From: a virus
Reading direction: 5' to 3' (one strand)
Virus record (IMG/VR): IMGVR_UViG_3300030099_000365
Span: 1 to 24,511 of that record
Length of the DNA: 24,511 bases
Part shown: piece by piece, positions 2,109 through 23,929 of the stretch
Layout of the letters: every line of letters begins with the position of its first letter
Position numbering within the stretch: position 1 is the stretch's first letter
Notes under the pieces: generated by a model
The model's input: the letters and a program-made list of their open reading frames with translations, nothing else
Told to the model about the DNA's origin: nothing
The model's database searches: none
Program-made: the position numbers and the translations under genes

Positions 2109-3200
2109 TTATACTTTATCTGCGGCGAACATGTAGTTGTTTGCCATAGCCCACTGCGTGAACTTTTTGTTGGTCATAACCATTGACTGCTTACTGTACT
2201 TCGGCGCACGTACACCGTTGGCGAACATGCCCTGTGCCTCTTTGTCGAGACGTGGCAAGTAATCCATCCAAGCATTGAGCCATTCTTTCTCTAAACTTGC
2301 TAGGGTGCGATACACCACCATACAAACGGCTGCGGCACTGTCGGGTACTTTTGCGCCTTTCGGATCATCTTTGATTGACTGTAAGCTAGGCAGTTGGTCA
2401 GCCAGTTTGACAAACGCCATCAAGTCCATCGCGCCACGGTCACCGATTGTACCCATGAGCATAGCGGTCAGGGTCTGGTCATCAAACTTGTCACGCACCT
2501 TGAGCCAATCAGATGCGGCTTCGAGTGAACGCGGTGTGACAAACGCCGCACGTTGTGACTTCGGATGGTAGATGTATGGGTTCTCGTCTGGATCTTTTAC
2601 GTCCTCGAATGACAAGAATAGTTGTGGGTTGTCTTTACACCAACCAAGTAATGTGTGGTCAATGTCGTTGTTGATGCCCCACTCAATCCATTCAAGGTTG
2701 CTCGGTTTGCGAGCAGTCACCACCGTGATGCGGTTACGTGCATGTGGTGGTAACAAGTCACCCACACCCTCTGCGCCAAGGTTCGTCGTTGCGAACACGA
2801 TACTGTCAGGGTGCAGTGCGTACGATCCGATCTTACGTTCTAGCATAAGACGTAACAGTGCGAGCTTCACTGATGGATTAGCTTTGCCATACTCGTCGAT
2901 CATCAATATGATAGGCGCGTTGATGTGTGCACCCAATTCTTCGTTAGTGGCGTAACTAACAAAACCTTGACCATCAGCGGTCTTGATGTTGGGTAGCGTA
3001 ATGTCACCCAAGTCTTTTGTGGTACAGTCAAAGTAACACGCGGTATGCGTAGGATTACGTCTTGACAACTCAGTGAGTAGTGACGATTTGCCAGTACCCA
3101 TGTGACCTTGTACCAGTGTGGTACGTTTGTTACCACCTGCTTCGACACCCTCTAGAATTTGATCTAGATTAAGTGCGTACATTTGTTGTGCATTGCTCAT
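2109..3200 (-). CDS. MoxR-type AAA+ ATPase
   Basis: This 363-residue protein carries a full AAA+ core. Walker A is GHMGTGKS at 32-39, Walker B is IILMIDEYGKA at 97-107, a sensor-1 segment is VFATTN at 135-140, and the arginine-rich PPHARNR at 151-157 sits where MoxR proteins place their arginine finger. The DEYGKAN sequence after Walker B resembles the MoxR/CobS subgroup. Such ATPases form hexameric rings and act with a VWA partner to remodel target proteins or help insert metal cofactors; the VWA partner is two genes downstream. AAGGAG is spaced about 7 bases from the ATG. An 11-base gap separates it from the DUF3150-like gene upstream. The C-terminal third has no motif that I recognise. Clients are unknown. 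Confidence 0.92.
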   Translation of the reverse strand: MSNAQQMYALNLDQILEGVEAGGNKRTTLVQGHMGTGKSSLLTELSRRNPTHTACYFDCTTKDLGDITLPNIKTADGQGFVSYATNEELGAHINAPIILMIDEYGKANPSVKLALLRLMLERKIGSYALHPDSIVFATTNLGAEGVGDLLPPHARNRITVVTARKPSNLEWIEWGINNDIDHTLLGWCKDNPQLFLSFEDVKDPDENPYIYHPKSQRAAFVTPRSLEAASDWLKVRDKFDDQTLTAMLMGTIGDRGAMDLMAFVKLADQLPSLQSIKDDPKGAKVPDSAAAVCMVVYRTLASLEKEWLNAWMDYLPRLDKEAQGMFANGVRAPKYSKQSMVMTNKKFTQWAMANNYMFAADKV

Positions 3201-11092: not shown

Positions 11093-11290
11093 ATGGCAAC
11101 TACCGTCTTTGACGTGCTTATTAAAAATATCGACGAGGAAATCTCGTCTGCACAAACCTTTGTATGTGGTGGATCTCCAAAAGAGTATGCTGATTACAGG
11201 GAAGTTGTAGGCTTAATTCGGGGTCTTGAAGCCTGCAAACGTTATGTAGAAGACCTCTCGCGTAACTACATGGAAAATGATAATGACTGA
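11093..11290 (+). CDS. Small unknown protein between portal and co-chaperonin genes
   Basis: This 65-residue protein starts 3 bases after the portal stop and overlaps the co-chaperonin gene by 8 bases. It is helical, with DVLIKNIDEEISSA and an end segment VVGLIRGLEACKRYVEDL that could form a helical hairpin. There are two cysteines and no membrane segment. Small proteins of this size and pattern often follow portal genes in marine phages, without a known function. The ribosome site is weak and distant (GGAGC about 16 bases upstream), so translation is probably coupled to the portal gene. A head-assembly accessory role is inferred from position. Confidence 0.75.
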   Translation: MATTVFDVLIKNIDEEISSAQTFVCGGSPKEYADYREVVGLIRGLEACKRYVEDLSRNYMENDND

Positions 11291-11660
11291 AGCAGCGATT
11301 AAAATAAAGAAAGAACAGGAGTTTGAGGCACAGCTTCCAACCCCTGCGGGATACAAAATACTTATTGCCCTACCAAAAGCCTCTGAAACTTATGAAGGGT
11401 CAAGTATTCTTAAATCTGATAAGGAAAAAGATTTAGACCATATAATGTCTATTATCGGGCTTGTTATGGATGTAGGTCCACAAGCCTATGCCGATACAGA
11501 TAGATTTCCAAATGGACCATGGTGTAAACAAGGTGATTATGTAATGTTTCGTATGAACTCAGGCACTAGGTTTAAATTAGATGGTATGGAGTACCGTTTA
11601 ATGAATGATGATAACATCGAGGCAGTTGTGGCTGATCCTCGTGGTATTACACGTGCGTAG
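11283..11660 (+). CDS. GroES-like co-chaperonin
   Basis: This is a protein of about 125 residues with the GroES beta-barrel pattern. Counting from an alternative ATG at 11277, GYKILIALPKASE (25-37) matches the first strand. ETYEGSSILKSDK (37-49) corresponds to the flexible mobile loop whose hydrophobic tripeptide (IVL in GroES) binds GroEL, here SIL. GLVMDVGP (61-68), GDYVMFRM (86-93) and the end DGMEYRLMNDDNIEAVV complete the pattern. Like T4 gp31, it probably works with host GroEL, perhaps folding the capsid protein encoded 2 kb downstream. The later ATG at 11283 is favoured because GGA then lies 8 bases upstream. The protein is longer than bacterial GroES (about 97) because of the N-terminus and an insert around 69-84. 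Confidence 0.85.
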   Translation: MTEAAIKIKKEQEFEAQLPTPAGYKILIALPKASETYEGSSILKSDKEKDLDHIMSIIGLVMDVGPQAYADTDRFPNGPWCKQGDYVMFRMNSGTRFKLDGMEYRLMNDDNIEAVVADPRGITRA

Positions 11661-15600: not shown

Positions 15601-15909
15601 ATGCGGGCTTATTATAAAAAAGGCGGGGGTGTAAAGTCCCCTGCTTGGCAACGTAAAGAAGGCAAAAGTGAGTCTGGTGGACTCAATGCAAAAGGTGTCG
15701 CAAGCTACCGCAAAGCCAACCCCGGCAGCAAATTAAAAACTGCTGTCACTACAAAACCTAGCAAACTTAAAAAAGGTTCTAAAGCTGCTAAACGGCGTAA
15801 GTCTTTTTGCGCTCGTATGAAGGGCATGAAAAAAAGCCGTACAAGCGCAAAAACAGCTAATGATCCAAATAGTCGTATTAATAAAAGTCTACGGAAGTGG
15901 AATTGCTAG
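15601..15909 (+). CDS. Small very basic protein resembling DUF6321
   Basis: This 102-residue protein has about one third Lys/Arg. The segment WQRKEGKSESGGLNAKG, the following NPGSKLKTAV, then GSKAAKRRKSFCARMKGM and the ending SLRKWNC form a pattern that I recognise as DUF6321-like, found in marine phages. The function is not known. The composition suggests binding to nucleic acid or to acidic surfaces, and two cysteines could bind metal or form a disulfide. AGGGTG precedes the ATG by about 6 bases. It is the first of a cluster of tiny basic proteins (15601-17732, plus 19541) and overlaps the start of the next one by one base. Confidence 0.8.
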   Translation: MRAYYKKGGGVKSPAWQRKEGKSESGGLNAKGVASYRKANPGSKLKTAVTTKPSKLKKGSKAAKRRKSFCARMKGMKKSRTSAKTANDPNSRINKSLRKWNC

Positions 15910-16034: not shown

Positions 16035-16704
16035 TATTCCGTATTTTAAGGCATGGGTACGAAGAGAGTACACAAAGAATTTAGAAGACTATCACGGAGA
16101 GTTTTTACACGCCATGGTTGTTGCAGTAACTACAATGCCAAACAGAACACTTAGTTTTCAAGTGATTTTCACTGGCTGCGAGTCTGACGATACAGATGAG
16201 CCAAACGTCCATGGCGGAGCCATGTGGGCGCGTATGCCGCTTACTGCCCTAGTTGCAGATACTCCGCTGGAAGAATGGCCTACGGAATTGCCTCCGTATA
16301 TGGCACAACCTTGGGATTGTATGTCTCATACTCATTCAGTTTATAAAATAGAACGCGCATCTCCTGCACCATGGATAGCTAAAGTTGATGGCGAGTTTTA
16401 TCCTGCAAAATACTATTTTACTGTTGACTACACTGATAGTGAGGTTGCAGACGATCCAGCGCAACATAAACAAAGCCATGTACTTGAGTTGTTAGACGCT
16501 GGAGAGTACACTGGAAATATGGTAGCATTACCAAATAATCGGGTTCGTGTTACGCACCCTGCGTGGTTTGAAACAGGGCAAGGTGCTCCAGACTTCAAAC
16601 CGAATCAACATTCCTACGGTTCAAAAGAAGATGTAGATTACGTTTGGGATACAGATAGAGTATTTAACAATTTGTATAAGGAGACTGATAATGATGAAAC
16701 CTAA
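16015..16704 (+). CDS. Unknown 229-residue protein
   Basis: This is an acidic, aromatic-rich, soluble protein quite unlike the basic proteins on either side. It contains well-formed segments such as YFKAWVRREYTKNLEDYHGE, TMPNRTLSFQVIFTGCE, GAMWARMPLTALV, PYMAQPWDCMSHTHSV and YYFTVDYTDSEVADD. This suggests a folded globular domain, perhaps enzymatic, with conserved-looking Trp, His and Cys residues (CMSHTHS at about 103-109 could bind metal). I recall similar uncharacterised proteins in marine phages but no function. AAAGGA lies 5 bases ahead of the ATG. The last 14 bases overlap the start of the Lys/Gly repeat gene. Confidence 0.8.
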   Translation: MPYLQSSIPYFKAWVRREYTKNLEDYHGEFLHAMVVAVTTMPNRTLSFQVIFTGCESDDTDEPNVHGGAMWARMPLTALVADTPLEEWPTELPPYMAQPWDCMSHTHSVYKIERASPAPWIAKVDGEFYPAKYYFTVDYTDSEVADDPAQHKQSHVLELLDAGEYTGNMVALPNNRVRVTHPAWFETGQGAPDFKPNQHSYGSKEDVDYVWDTDRVFNNLYKETDNDET

Positions 16705-17032
16705 AGCACGACCTTCAAAAATGAAAAAAGGCTTCAAAGCTGGTGGCAAAATGAAAAAAGGCTTTAAAGCTGGTGGCAAAATGAAAAAAGGCTTCAAAGC
16801 TGGTGGCAAGCTAGAAATGGTTAAAAATAAACAGGGCGATATGGTTCCTTTTTACGCTGCTGACGGCAAAGGTAAAATGAAAGCTGGCGGTAAAGTTAAA
16901 AAAGGTTATGCCGCAGGTGGTAAAGCTAAAGGTGCAGCTAAAGGTGGTAAAACTAAAGGAGCAGCTAAAGGCGGTAAAGTAAGAGGAGCAGGTATTGCCC
17001 GTAAAGGCGTACGCCCTGCTAAAATGCTATGA
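16691..17032 (+). CDS. Lys/Gly-rich repeat protein with KVRGxG tail
   Basis: This 113-residue protein is made almost only of Lys, Gly, Ala and Met. Residues 10-39 are three exact copies of KMKKGFKAGG. A less repetitive part (LEMVKNKQGDMVPFYAADG) follows, then copies of KGAAKGGK, and the end KVRGAGIARKGVRPAKML. That tail recurs in shortened form in the next gene and in the 47-residue gene at 19541. AAGGAG lies 8 bases before the ATG at 16691; an ATG at 16694 is also possible. It is expected to be disordered and strongly positive, and may bind DNA inside the head or acidic host surfaces. The function is unknown. Confidence 0.78.
   Translation: MMKPKARPSKMKKGFKAGGKMKKGFKAGGKMKKGFKAGGKLEMVKNKQGDMVPFYAADGKGKMKAGGKVKKGYAAGGKAKGAAKGGKTKGAAKGGKVRGAGIARKGVRPAKML
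16718..16807 (+). repeat. Three tandem 30-base repeats inside the Lys/Gly-rich gene
   Basis: Three head-to-tail units of 30 bases (16718-16747, 16748-16777, 16778-16807) differ only by a silent C/T change in the middle copy. The high identity at silent positions points to recent duplication or slippage rather than selection on protein alone. Confidence 0.9.
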
Positions 17033-17229
17033 ACAAAAACCGTTCTGCACAATTAAGAGACCAGCTAGCGGGGCTATCGCCTGATGACGATATGTACCAA
17101 ATATTGTTGGACGAGATAATGATGCTAGAAGGTAAAGGCCCGTACGCTAAACCTAGAAAGTTTGGTGGCGGTGGTAAAGTTCGTGGGTATGGTAAGGCTC
17201 GCGGCGCTAAACCCTGTAAGATGAGGTGA
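17029..17229 (+). CDS. Small protein with acidic helix and KVRGxG basic tail
   Basis: This 66-residue protein overlaps the stop of the repeat gene by ATGA. Unlike its neighbours it has a normal acidic helical part (QLRDQLAGLSPDDDMYQILL, DEIMMLEGKG) followed by a Gly/Lys/Arg tail that ends in KVRGYGKARGAKPCKMR, clearly related to the tail of the preceding protein. This looks like a small folded domain carrying a shared basic tag. There is no strong ribosome site, so it is probably translated by coupling. Function unknown. Confidence 0.72.
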   Translation: MNKNRSAQLRDQLAGLSPDDDMYQILLDEIMMLEGKGPYAKPRKFGGGGKVRGYGKARGAKPCKMR

Positions 17230-17235
17230 TACTTT

Positions 17236-17403
17236 ATGCGTAGATATTACAAATCAGGAGGAAAGATCTGTGCGAAGGGTAAAGCATGGGCAAAACGCAC
17301 CTTTGATACGTACCCCTCTGCGTATGCAAACATGGCAGCGTCTAAATACTGTAAAGACCCTAATTACGCAAAAGGATCTAAAGGTAAAAAGGCGAAGAAA
17401 TAA
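17236..17403 (+). CDS. Small basic Cys-containing protein (55 residues)
   Basis: An ATG at 17236 opens a 55-codon frame with GAGGTGAT about 5 bases upstream. The product begins with RRYYKSGGKICAKGKAW and continues with KRTFDTYPSAYANMAASKYC, then a Lys-rich end. The two cysteines and the central Tyr/Ala segment look like a small conserved fold; I associate this pattern with short proteins of marine phages and cyanophages of unknown function. Its stop TAA shares an A with the next start, so the two genes are coupled. Its shortness makes it easy to miss, but the start signal and composition support it well. Confidence 0.78.
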   Translation: MRRYYKSGGKICAKGKAWAKRTFDTYPSAYANMAASKYCKDPNYAKGSKGKKAKK

Positions 17404-17732
17404 TGGGCGAGCTAAAGAAATGGCGAGACCAACAATGGGTGAGGATTGGAACCGATGGCAAAGTTAAAGGTCCGTGCGGCACTTCAAAAGATAAAAAGAA
17501 TCCTGACAGGTGCCTTCCAAAAGCTAAAGCAAATAGTCTTTCAAGGGAAGAAAGAAGAAAAACCGCGCAAAAGAAAAAACGCGAAGGGAAAAAAGGCAAA
17601 ACAGTAGTAAAGAATACAAAAGCTGCTACAGTAAAGTTGTCAAGTGGTGGATTAGCTCGTCGCAAACGCTCAATTGCCAGAGGTTGTGGGGCAGTTATGG
17701 AAAATAGAAGGAAACAAACACTATATACATAA
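17403..17732 (+). CDS. Small basic protein resembling DUF5872 with ARGCGAVM tail
   Basis: This 109-residue protein contains WRDQQWVRIGTDGK, then GPCGTSKDKKNPDRCLPKAK with two cysteines, then SREERRKTAQKKKREGKKGK. That order resembles DUF5872, a small phage family without a known function. A separate C-terminal tail reads GGLARRKRSIARGCGAVMEN and ends NRRKQTLYT, another version of the Arg/Gly tails seen in neighbouring proteins. The start codon overlaps the previous stop by one base. It may be a fusion of a DUF5872-like unit to a shared tail. The predicted charge is very positive, so nucleic acid binding is plausible. Confidence 0.78.
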   Translation: MGELKKWRDQQWVRIGTDGKVKGPCGTSKDKKNPDRCLPKAKANSLSREERRKTAQKKKREGKKGKTVVKNTKAATVKLSSGGLARRKRSIARGCGAVMENRRKQTLYT

Positions 17733-18064: not shown

Positions 18065-18745
18065 ATGGCTACATCGGGCACCACATCGTTTAACATGGAC
18101 TTCACGGAGATCGCTGAAGAAGCATGGGAACGTGCGGGTCGAGAGATGCGATCTGGGTATGACCTTCGCACTGCTCGTCGCTCGATGAACTTAATGACTA
18201 TTGAATGGCAAAATCGTGGAATAAACTTATGGACGATTGATGAAGGCACTGTAAGCCTTACGGAAGGCACTGCTACTTACAATCTTCCCGCAGACACCAT
18301 TGATTTGCTTGAACAAGTGGTGCGTACAGGTAGTGGTACTGCACAACAAGACCTTACAATATCACGAATCAGTGTAAGTACGTTTGCTACTATACCAAAT
18401 AAAACTGATACTGGTAGACCGATTCAAGTGTTCATTGAGCGTTTACGAGATCAACCACGCATCACCGTATGGCCTGTTCCTAGCTCTGATGAATATACGT
18501 TTGTATATTGGAGACTACGTAGGATTGAAGACGCTGGCTCTGGTACTCAAACAGCGGATATGAATTTCCGCTTCCTCCCGTGTTTGGTGGCGGGGCTGGC
18601 GTACCATATTGCTATGAAAGTATCTGAATTAGCTCCGCGTGTGGATATGCTAAAAGCAGAGTATGAGGCACAATTTGTTTTAGCGGCGGGAGAGGACCGA
18701 GAAAAAACCCCGTTTCGATTTGTGCCTAATATGATGAGGCCGTAA
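18065..18745 (+). CDS. Head-tail adaptor-like protein (P22 gp4-type or tubular A-type)
   Basis: This 226-residue protein has the layout of connector proteins that dock on the portal. A helical N-terminus (FTEIAEEAWERAGREMRSGY) is followed by a helix RRSMNLMTIEWQNRGINLW and a beta part beginning TVSLTEGTATYNLPADTIDL. A further strand pair (PRITVWPVPSSDEYTFVYWR) and a C-terminal helix bundle complete it. Such proteins close the head and hold the tail in podoviruses (P22 gp4, T7 gp11). The position in the virion gene series, before a second adaptor-like gene at 19688, agrees. AAAGG lies 8 bases before the ATG. The exact family is not certain. Confidence 0.75.
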   Translation: MATSGTTSFNMDFTEIAEEAWERAGREMRSGYDLRTARRSMNLMTIEWQNRGINLWTIDEGTVSLTEGTATYNLPADTIDLLEQVVRTGSGTAQQDLTISRISVSTFATIPNKTDTGRPIQVFIERLRDQPRITVWPVPSSDEYTFVYWRLRRIEDAGSGTQTADMNFRFLPCLVAGLAYHIAMKVSELAPRVDMLKAEYEAQFVLAAGEDREKTPFRFVPNMMRP

Positions 18746-19479
18746 TGGACCGTTTTGCGTCTGCACGAAAAGCATTAGCTATATGCGATGTTTGTGGCTT
18801 CTCTTATAGATTAAAAGAATTACGTCCTTTGTATGTAAAAGGAAATAATACAAATACACTTGCGTGTCCTACATGTTGGAATCCAGATCATCCACAGCTT
18901 CGATTAGGAGAATTTCCCGTAGATGACCCGCAGGCACTTCGCAACCCTCGTCCAGATACTGCTGAATTAACACCTTCTAGGAATAACCAATATGGTTTTA
19001 ATCCTGTAGGTTTAAATGATCCATTCAACTTACAAGATAATAATTTAATTGCACAATCAGGCGTGGGAGTTGTTGTAGTAACGGCTACTTCTGGCACAAG
19101 CGGTGCAATTAACGTTACAGGTGTGGCTGGCACTTTAGGTATTGGTGATCCAACAATAAGTGTAGACACAGGGTATACGGTTACCGTGGCTAACCCCGGT
19201 TCGGGAAATAAATACTATATTGATAGTGTTTTACAGCCAACTCTTAACTTGTCTGAGGGTAGCACGTACGTCTTTAATTGGTCAGCAGCTACAGGGCATC
19301 CTCTTCGTTTTTCAACTACTTCTGATGGAACGCATGGAGGGGGGTCTGAATATACAACGGGGGTAACAATAGATACATCCGCGTATACTTCAACTATAAC
19401 TGTCGCTTCTGGTGCTCCTACTCTTTATTACTATTGTCAACATCATAGCGGTATGGGGGGTCAGCTTAATACAATATAA
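18745..19479 (+). CDS. Zinc-finger plus cupredoxin-like protein
   Basis: The N-terminal 70 residues of this 244-residue protein contain CDVC at 14-17 and CPTC at 41-44, a four-cysteine zinc site, followed by a conserved-looking WNPDHPQLRLGEFPVDDPQA. A Thr/Gly/Val-rich beta stretch spans about 105-150. The C-terminal 95 residues look like a cupredoxin. GHPLRF supplies His185 and YYYCQHHSGMGG supplies Cys231, His234 and Met237, the Cys-x2-His-x2-Met loop of type 1 copper proteins. If copper is bound, electron transfer is possible; otherwise it is a structural beta-sandwich in the virion. The start overlaps the adaptor stop by one base. The position among tail and connector genes suggests a virion protein. 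No signal peptide is seen. Confidence 0.8.
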   Translation: MDRFASARKALAICDVCGFSYRLKELRPLYVKGNNTNTLACPTCWNPDHPQLRLGEFPVDDPQALRNPRPDTAELTPSRNNQYGFNPVGLNDPFNLQDNNLIAQSGVGVVVVTATSGTSGAINVTGVAGTLGIGDPTISVDTGYTVTVANPGSGNKYYIDSVLQPTLNLSEGSTYVFNWSAATGHPLRFSTTSDGTHGGGSEYTTGVTIDTSAYTSTITVASGAPTLYYYCQHHSGMGGQLNTI

Positions 19480-19540: not shown

Positions 19541-19684
19541 ATGATGAAAAAAGGTTACAAAAAAGGCGGTAAGGTAAGTAAACCTGTTAAAACTGCAAAA
19601 ACCCCTAAAAAAACTAATGGGGTAAAGGTTCGCGGTACAGGCGCTGCCACAAAAGGTTTATATGCAAGAGGGCCAATGGCGTAG
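19541..19684 (+). CDS. Tiny basic protein with KVRGTGAA tail (47 residues)
   Basis: ATG at 19541 is preceded by AGGAG (7 bases) and opens a 47-codon frame. The product starts MMKKGYKKGGKVSKP and ends KVRGTGAATKGLYARGPMA, the same type of tail as the genes at 16691 and 17029. It is nearly all Lys, Gly, Thr, Ala and Val and is likely disordered. It lies apart from the main basic cluster, between the cupredoxin-like gene and the second adaptor-like gene, whose ATG comes 3 bases after its stop. That start has no good ribosome site of its own, so this small gene may also serve to bring in ribosomes. Confidence 0.78.
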   Translation: MMKKGYKKGGKVSKPVKTAKTPKKTNGVKVRGTGAATKGLYARGPMA

Positions 19685-19687
19685 CAC

Positions 19688-20317
19688 ATGAATTATACTG
19701 AGTTAAAAACAAACATAGAAGATGTCTGTGAGAACACGTTTACAGACGACCAATTAGCTATGTTTACTCAGCAAGCAGAACAAAAAATATATAACTCTGT
19801 GCAGCTACCAGCGTTACGCAAGAATGTAACTGCTACTTTAACCGCAAATGATAAATACTTAGCGTTGCCTTCAGATTATTTATACACGTATAGTTTGGCA
19901 ATTGTTGATAGTTCTAGTAATTATATATACTTACTAGATAAAGATGTTAATTTTATTAGGGAAGCATATCCAAAGCAAACCACTACAGGCGTGCCCGTAC
20001 ACTACGCAAATTTTGATGATAGTGCATTTATTTTAGGACCAACACCAGATACAGCGTATCAAACGGAGCTACATTATGGATATTACCCACAATCAATTGT
20101 AACTGCAGGAACTACATGGTTGGGGGATGAGTTTGATTCCGCGTTACTTAATGGTGCATTAGTTGAAGCAATTCGGTTTATGAAGGGTGAGCAGGATATG
20201 GTAGATGTGTATAACAAAATGTATGCTTTTTCTATCGGGCTTCTTAAAAATCTTGGAGATGGTAAGTTAAGAGGAGACACTTATCGTTCTGGACAACCAA
20301 GAAACCCAGTCAGTTAG
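19688..20317 (+). CDS. Phage adaptor-like virion protein
   Basis: This 209-residue protein has the segment order of phage adaptor proteins: an N-terminal helix pair (YTELKTNIEDVCENTFTDDQ, LAMFTQQAEQKIYNSVQLPA), a beta part (VTATLTANDKYLALPSDYL), a PTPDTAYQTELHYGYYP segment and a helical C-terminus (LLNGALVEAIRFMKGEQDMV). The last 12 residues are polar. In related phages this protein sits between portal and tail. It is the second such gene here, and two stacked adaptors are known in podovirus necks. The start lacks a ribosome site and is 3 bases from the upstream stop, indicating coupling. The exact family name is uncertain. Confidence 0.75.
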   Translation: MNYTELKTNIEDVCENTFTDDQLAMFTQQAEQKIYNSVQLPALRKNVTATLTANDKYLALPSDYLYTYSLAIVDSSSNYIYLLDKDVNFIREAYPKQTTTGVPVHYANFDDSAFILGPTPDTAYQTELHYGYYPQSIVTAGTTWLGDEFDSALLNGALVEAIRFMKGEQDMVDVYNKMYAFSIGLLKNLGDGKLRGDTYRSGQPRNPVS

Positions 20318-23161: not shown

Positions 23162-23929
23162 ATGTTAGGCTTTACACCATTAGCCTCCGCAACACTTGCG
23201 AGTAGTGGCAGCACTGCTGCATCAGTATCAGTATCCGTTACAGGTGTAGCCGCAACAGGTGCTTTAGGGTCAGTAAGTGTAAACGCTAATTCATCAGTTT
23301 CCGTTACAGGCTTGGGAGCAACTGGAGATGTAGGCAGCGTTACTGTTTCTGCGTCAGCGGTTGTATCAGTAGATTCTTTAGCGGCTCAAGGGTTTGTAGG
23401 AAGTCTTTCTCCCGGGGGCAATTCTTTTGTTGTTGCCACAGGGGTAAGCGGTACAGGAGCAGTTAATGATGCTACAGCCGCCGCAGGAGCTATTGTTTCA
23501 GTAACAGGGTTGGAAGCTACAGGCGGTGTCGAAGCTGTTGTCGTTACTCCTAAAATAGTTGTTACCCCAACAGGGTTAGAAATTACGAGTTCTGTAGGCA
23601 CAGTTACAGCTACAACTGATGTGGCTATTTCAGTTACAGGAGTTTCTGCAACGGGTGCTTTAAGTGATGTTACAGTCACAGGTGACACTGTTGTTTCAGT
23701 TACAGGACTTTCTGCAACAGGCGAGGTGACATCTCCGTTAGTTTGGAGTAATATAGTTCCAAGTCCGGGGACTTCTTGGAGTGGTATAGCACCGAGTCCG
23801 GGGACTTCTTGGAGTGGTATAGCACCAAGTCCGGGGACTTCTTGGAGTAATGTAACACCGAGTCCGGGGACTTCTTGGAGTAATATAACCCCAAGTGCAA
23901 ATACAACTTGGACGGAAATAGCGGCGTAG
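23162..23929 (+). CDS. Repeat-built virion protein with WSxIxPSPGTS C-terminus
   Basis: This 255-residue protein consists of two repeat zones. Residues about 20-190 are degenerate repeats of the type SVTGVAATGALGSV with each unit roughly 20-25 residues, all Val, Ser, Thr, Gly and Ala, which suggests stacked beta strands. Residues 195-249 are five 11-residue repeats such as WSGIAPSPGTS, ending WTEIAA. There are almost no charged residues and no cysteine. The hydrophobic N-terminus could suit a tail-tip or fibre stem. It lies between the spike and a second fibre gene, so it is probably part of the adsorption apparatus. The start is 3 bases after the previous stop. Confidence 0.75.
   Translation: MLGFTPLASATLASSGSTAASVSVSVTGVAATGALGSVSVNANSSVSVTGLGATGDVGSVTVSASAVVSVDSLAAQGFVGSLSPGGNSFVVATGVSGTGAVNDATAAAGAIVSVTGLEATGGVEAVVVTPKIVVTPTGLEITSSVGTVTATTDVAISVTGVSATGALSDVTVTGDTVVSVTGLSATGEVTSPLVWSNIVPSPGTSWSGIAPSPGTSWSGIAPSPGTSWSNVTPSPGTSWSNITPSANTTWTEIAA
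23744..23908 (+). repeat. Five tandem 33-base repeats inside the repeat-built gene
   Basis: Units of 33 bases begin at 23744, 23777, 23810, 23843 and 23876, each starting with TGG. The first four keep the core AGTCCGGGGACTTCT nearly unchanged, and the fifth is more diverged. The near identity at silent positions suggests recent expansion. Confidence 0.88.

Follow-up and report, generated by a model that had tools for sequence, protein, structure and literature searches.

The question raised by this locus is what a small protein that carries paired cysteines near its N-terminus and a His, Cys, His and Met set near its C-terminus does next to an adaptor gene of a virus. A sequence-only reading had described it as a zinc-finger protein fused to a cupredoxin-like domain. 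The stretch of DNA that was analysed, hereafter the window, is a 24.5-kb IMG/VR virus record. Its genes include those for a large terminase, a portal, a Mu/gpT-type major capsid protein and a peptidase-S74 tail protein, which together with the SU10-type adaptors indicate that the window comes from a tailed phage, probably one with a short tail.

Gene order around the adaptor genes

The open reading frame (ORF), as well as each cysteine, histidine and methionine proposed as a ligand, was found where the sequence-only reading had placed it. The features are as follows.

18065..18745, plus strand: SU10-type adaptor gene, directly upstream of and overlapping the ORF (PF24175, E=1.7e-14)
18745..19479, plus strand: the ORF, 244 aa, with N-terminal module, linker and C-terminal cupredoxin-like domain (ORF translation; relatives)
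18745..18969, plus strand: N-terminal zinc-ribbon-like module, residues 1-75, with the conserved DPQALRNPRPD tail (alignment A1, AlphaFold2 (AF2) strands, tree)
18784..18795, plus strand: C14-x2-C17, putative first zinc knuckle, clade-specific (sequence, alignment, tree)
18865..18876, plus strand: C41-x2-C44, putative second zinc knuckle, clade-specific (sequence, alignment, tree)
18970..19164, plus strand: linker, residues 76-140, with one INVTGVAGTLGIGD-type repeat (19108-19149), modelled at low confidence (alignment, AF2)
19165..19476, plus strand: predicted cupredoxin-like domain, residues 141-244 (fold model, profile and structure matches)
19297..19299, plus strand: H185, first predicted copper ligand, in a G-H-P motif (sequence, conservation)
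19435..19455, plus strand: C231-x2-H234-x2-M237, the other three predicted copper ligands (sequence, conservation)
19688..20317, plus strand: second SU10-adaptor-family gene, downstream of the ORF (PF24175, E=2e-22)

The two PF24175 genes flank the ORF, and their products show no similarity to each other by BLASTP. The ATG of the ORF lies inside the stop codon of the preceding adaptor gene (TAATGG). In phage SU10 the long tail fibre docks on the adaptor dodecamer (PMC9509320), and the fibre gene comes after the adaptor gene. The window has the same order (18065-18745, then directly 18745-19479), so that the ORF, with a PF24175 adaptor gene upstream as in the SU10 gp11/gp12 tail, occupies the position of the adaptor-docked fibre gene; a gene of the same type also follows the adaptor gene in Roseobacter phage CRP-902. 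The protein is, however, far shorter than SU10 gp12, and hhalign of its N-terminal part against gp12 gave a probability of 0.3%, with no sequence similarity found. For this reason we put forward docking on the adaptor as a hypothesis, by analogy with SU10. A virion location of the protein is suggested by the gene position and by relatives annotated as virion, tail or baseplate proteins.

Elsewhere in the window, five small Lys/Gly/Arg-rich ORFs are located between the capsid and tail genes (15601-15909, 16691-17032, 17029-17229, 17403-17732 and 19541-19684), with examples such as three in-frame KMKKGFKAGG copies and a 47-aa product with MMKKGYKKGGK encoded right 3' of the ORF. Related 30-nt repeats are common to three of the five. 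On the minus strand, a DUF2201 metallopeptidase/VWA-like protein adjoins an AAA ATPase (657-1892 and 2109-3200), a MoxR-VWA-like pair in a phage, and a phage-encoded GroES-like protein (11277-11660; Cpn10, E=4.3e-8) lies between the portal and capsid genes.

The C-terminal domain and its predicted copper ligands

The linker was poorly modelled in the full-length AF2 prediction, so the C-terminal domain was modelled on its own from an alignment of greater diversity. Residues 137-244 alone (33 relatives) gave a model with nine strands, pLDDT 91.9 and pTM 0.84. When this model was compared with the PDB using Foldseek, the top structural matches were almost all cupredoxins, with TM to target up to 0.61, and included rusticyanin, three-domain copper nitrite reductase, pseudoazurin with an amicyanin loop, plastocyanin and AcoP; the few others were Ig-like parts of Semaphorin and of the IL-18 receptor and an aspartic peptidase. 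Much the same matches were obtained with the full-length model. Profile A2 matched copper nitrite reductase in the PDB (E=8.4e-4), followed by plastocyanins, pseudoazurin, amicyanins and rusticyanins, whereas the broader profile A4 reached PDB copper proteins only at E 0.1-0.9. The window domain scored 15.0 bits against Pfam PF00127 (Copper-bind), below the gathering cut-off of 21.2, and 7 of 31 family members matched PF00127 weakly (best E 0.0016). Searches with single sequences gave no significant PDB match, and all their Pfam matches lay below cut-off; GH115_C and oestrogen-receptor matches among them were judged to be chance.

With A4 weak and PF00127 below its cut-off, the sequence evidence for the fold is marginal, and the modelled fold and the ligands carry the case. 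Residues 141-244 are predicted to form a Greek-key cupredoxin-fold domain, in agreement with the cupredoxin-like domain and plausible type 1 copper site first read from the letters. Like plastocyanin, pseudoazurin and rusticyanin (PF00127), the domain has a predicted Greek-key beta-sandwich, a His followed by Cys-His-Met, and a C-terminal ligand loop. It differs from these type 1 cupredoxins in residing in virion structural proteins, in falling below the Pfam cut-off, in having no known redox partner and in the proline that follows the first His.

Conservation of the ligands was assessed in relatives. Across 31 diverse copies, 28-75% identical to that of the window, the only invariant columns were one F, H185, Y229, C231, H234 and M237; several degenerate, short or insertion-split copies had been left out of this set by choice. 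A choice-free repeat, in which every ORF of the fetched loci was searched with a profile masked at the four ligand columns and copies were made non-redundant at 80%, recovered the His, Cys, His and Met set in 40 of 44 copies. The other four comprised one that stops before the loop and keeps the His, one that stops before the loop and has His replaced by Leu, and two without the site. Adding genome matches raised the count to 68 intact sets among 73 non-redundant copies, a figure biased by the genome loci, as the search pattern used there (profile A3) contains Cys and His; A3 was used because the diversity of A2 made it unsuitable for scanning genomes, and its cellular loci never served as sole evidence of conservation. 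Most deviating copies belonged to large proteins, of cyanophage or cyanophage-like type, in which another copy is present too. Chance occurrence of the motif was rejected on conservation; when the protein's own residues were shuffled, H-x(30-60)-CxxHxxM appeared in 7 of 20,000 cases.

All these suggest that the type 1 ligand set, His, Cys, His and axial Met in this order, is the most constrained part of the domain. Such strong conservation argues that a metal is bound, and the domain probably binds copper, as judged from the ligands and the model. It could instead be that the fold was reused without metal and that Cys, His and Met are kept solely as buried residues, in keeping with the 5 of 73 non-redundant copies that miss the intact set. 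We consider this improbable: a profile blinded to H, C, H and M still has these four among its best-conserved columns, with most other positions variable, and the deviating copies miss the whole set rather than single ligands, two of them ending before the loop.

Proline follows the first His ligand in 63 of the 68 copies (Pro186 in the window). A His-Pro pair is usual at the type 1 site of multicopper oxidases. In amicyanin the ligands are His53, Cys92, His95 and Met98, with Asn54 after the first His, and in rusticyanin this position is Ser86 (PMC12723479). The window domain thus shares the C-x2-H-x2-M loop spacing of amicyanin (C231, H234, M237) but has H185-P186 in place of H53-N54, as well as no methylamine dehydrogenase context. 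Because of the proline, the properties of the predicted site may differ from those of amicyanin.

The N-terminal module, the linker and exchange of the tip

The N-terminal module is a conserved family of its own, of about 75 residues and ending in DPQALRxPRPD. AF2 predicted a small ribbon-like fold with strands at 11-13, 20-22, 27-31 and 34-40, at moderate confidence (pLDDT 70-85 for residues 11-50). The module of the window has the two CxxC knuckles of a zinc ribbon (C14/C17/C41/C44). Among 59 non-redundant members of the module family, however, all four cysteines were present in 18 and no Cys ligand in 40, the Cys-free modules typically having SDRSG for CDVCG and VGPDE for CPTCW. The module tree indicated at least two changes of the Cys4 trait, in an alignment of few columns and with the root unknown. 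One locus (L220:4449-5255) carries a CDRCG...CRSC module amid Cys-free modules in the tree, which hints at independent loss or regain of a zinc site.

These comparisons suggest that the module fold outlives its zinc ligands. The zinc site proposed in the sequence-only reading is plausible for the clade of the window but does not extend to the module family, where it appears to be a labile trait, and a zinc site as the defining feature of the protein was rejected. Both parts of the proposed fusion are present, but as modular and widespread domains rather than as a one-off fusion.

The linker differs in length among relatives. Its GVxxTxxVG-type repeats recur in another ORF of the window (23162-23929), whose 255-aa product is built from VSVTGLxATGxVGxVTV repeats and, C-terminal to them, repeats of GTSWSGIAPSP; the former type is the one shared with the linker.

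To the C-terminal side of the module, gene content varied even between close relatives. Residues 1-75 of the window are 96% identical to those of one locus that has the tip as well (L001; tip 92% identical), 96% identical to those of another whose protein stops at about 113 aa and has no tip (L090), and 95% identical to those of a third with a different tail and a divergent copy of the domain in the next gene (L084). Conversely, tips 90-91% identical to that of the window are joined to modules of just 39-47% identity (L003, L007). The domain is encoded immediately before the module gene in phage 023Pt_psg01, in some other loci it lies at the start of a protein of its own, about 1.1 kb downstream of the module, and it is absent from most Cys4 relatives of the module. 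Near-identical modules with the tip, without it or with another tail, together with near-identical tips on distant modules, support an exchangeable cupredoxin-like tip on one tail protein, swapped among related phages.

Distribution and proposed role of the domain

The sequence-only reading had regarded virion proteins with a copper site as unusual, a view that does not agree with the distribution of the domain. With a permissive threshold (E up to 10), a tblastn search with the domain matched 320 phage records, nearly all of them phages of Synechococcus, Prochlorococcus, Pelagibacter or Methylophilales or marine phages. At E<=1e-5 the full protein matched 15 records, via the cupredoxin-like domain, and fifteen phage genomes had one to five domain matches apiece. 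A scan of IMG/VR yielded at least 594 confirmed stretches. The phage genes that carry the domain are annotated as tail fibre, baseplate wedge, gp9/gp10 tail-fibre connector or virion structural protein, and the domain occurs both in tandem copies and in many unrelated virion proteins. It is shared with PHROG 677, 708, 6005 and 30742 (cyanophage baseplate wedge, tail fibre connector and virion proteins; E 3.6e-12 to 1.1e-8), which differ in their N-terminal parts and virion positions and in which its function is unnamed.

Scanning of GTDB genomes gave 34 loci (profile A3, biased for the Cys and His ligands). Many were phage-like, with the same N-terminal module or cyanophage-type genes, and others looked cellular, encoding short proteins that begin with a lipoprotein-like signal (L229-L231, L235-L238) and in some cases also contain a cadherin domain. 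In large cellular-looking proteins the domain accompanies cadherin, RTX, Ig-like or collagen repeats, which are surface contexts. The proteins with a lipoprotein-like start, from marine Gammaproteobacteria/SAR86 and similar sources, have a single domain of the same family. Structural matches also included proteins of Pithovirus and Marseillevirus assemblies. Taken together, the matches indicate that the cupredoxin-like domain is common in ocean viruses.

Ig-like accessory domains of phage virion proteins are mobile beta-sandwiches found on varied virion proteins. The present domain resembles them in this respect and differs in its conserved metal site. Its site may thus be purely structural, with copper, or zinc or Cu(I) taken up in the cytoplasm, locking a small beta-sandwich whose role would be that of a generic Ig-like virion decoration and would not depend on the metal. 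We give this reading a considerable chance, though one short of even. It fits the tandem copies, the many unrelated virion carriers, the Ig and cadherin neighbours in cells and the lack of a recognisable redox partner gene beside the ORF in the window. Ig-like decorations, however, require no metal, and the site was lost in few copies (4 of 44), yet those copies are evidence that the fold can survive its loss.

The reading that we favour, and hold to be fairly likely, is that of an adaptor-proximal virion (tail) protein made of an anchor, a spacer and a cupredoxin tip with a predicted copper site, serving in attachment or decoration. The position of the gene after the adaptor gene, as for the SU10 fibre, suggests that the anchor is on the adaptor side and that the tip, beyond the spacer, is exposed. 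The anchor would be the ribbon-like N-terminal module, encoded right after the adaptor, and the spacer would be of variable length. The tip would be a cupredoxin-fold domain with an intact predicted type 1 site (His185, Cys231, His234, Met237), a mobile accessory carried by a wide variety of virion proteins in marine phages. Virion proteins are assembled in the cytoplasm, which holds very little free copper, so loading of copper into the tip would likely follow release or lysis. The tip may then be exposed and serve in binding or decoration, with strong selection acting on its metal site.

Binding or decoration is favoured over electron transfer by the surface and adhesin-like contexts of the domain in cells. 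A working redox module, acting for example against reactive oxygen species or on host surface redox proteins at infection, would account for the complete type 1 ligand set and the amicyanin spacing of the loop (PMC12723479). It seems quite unlikely to us, as the domain is tethered to structural proteins, has no partner gene and, in cells, occurs in those same contexts. Nothing pointed to the redox-dependent assembly that had been considered from the sequence.

The concentration of the domain in phages of marine bacteria would also fit a copper 'Trojan horse', in which a copper-loaded tip is recognised by copper-uptake or copper-binding proteins of the host surface. An iron 'Trojan horse' has been proposed from HxH motifs in marine phage tail fibres (PMC11705849), and this precedent makes the copper version conceivable; we attach little probability to it, because it has no known host receptor and is pure analogy with an iron hypothesis that is itself unproven. 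Attachment or decoration by an exposed tip remains our preferred reading. A bolder extension of it is that display of a copper-loaded type 1 cupredoxin domain is widespread among ocean phages, on tips, fibres and baseplates, with the domain exchanged with surface proteins of marine bacteria and used in a copper-dependent step of attachment or of the particle's function. We regard this as tentative and rather unlikely; if such display is broad, virions would form a copper-binding pool in seawater.

The fold and the site are of known kinds; as a mobile domain of virions they appear not to have been described. In the open-access literature, to which the search was confined, no paper joined bacteriophage, cupredoxin and virion or was seen to describe such a domain, searching for phage cupredoxins brought up only unrelated papers, and no experiment on any family member was found. 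The domain has thus gone unnamed, out of reach of Pfam and with no describing paper found in that literature. If the site holds copper, an unnamed blue-copper-type metalloprotein would rank among the most common accessory domains on virions of marine phages, and the debate on metals in phage tails would widen from iron to copper. The domain makes the copper content of cyanophage particles directly testable, and it marks an exchange point at which related phages appear to swap the tip of one tail protein.
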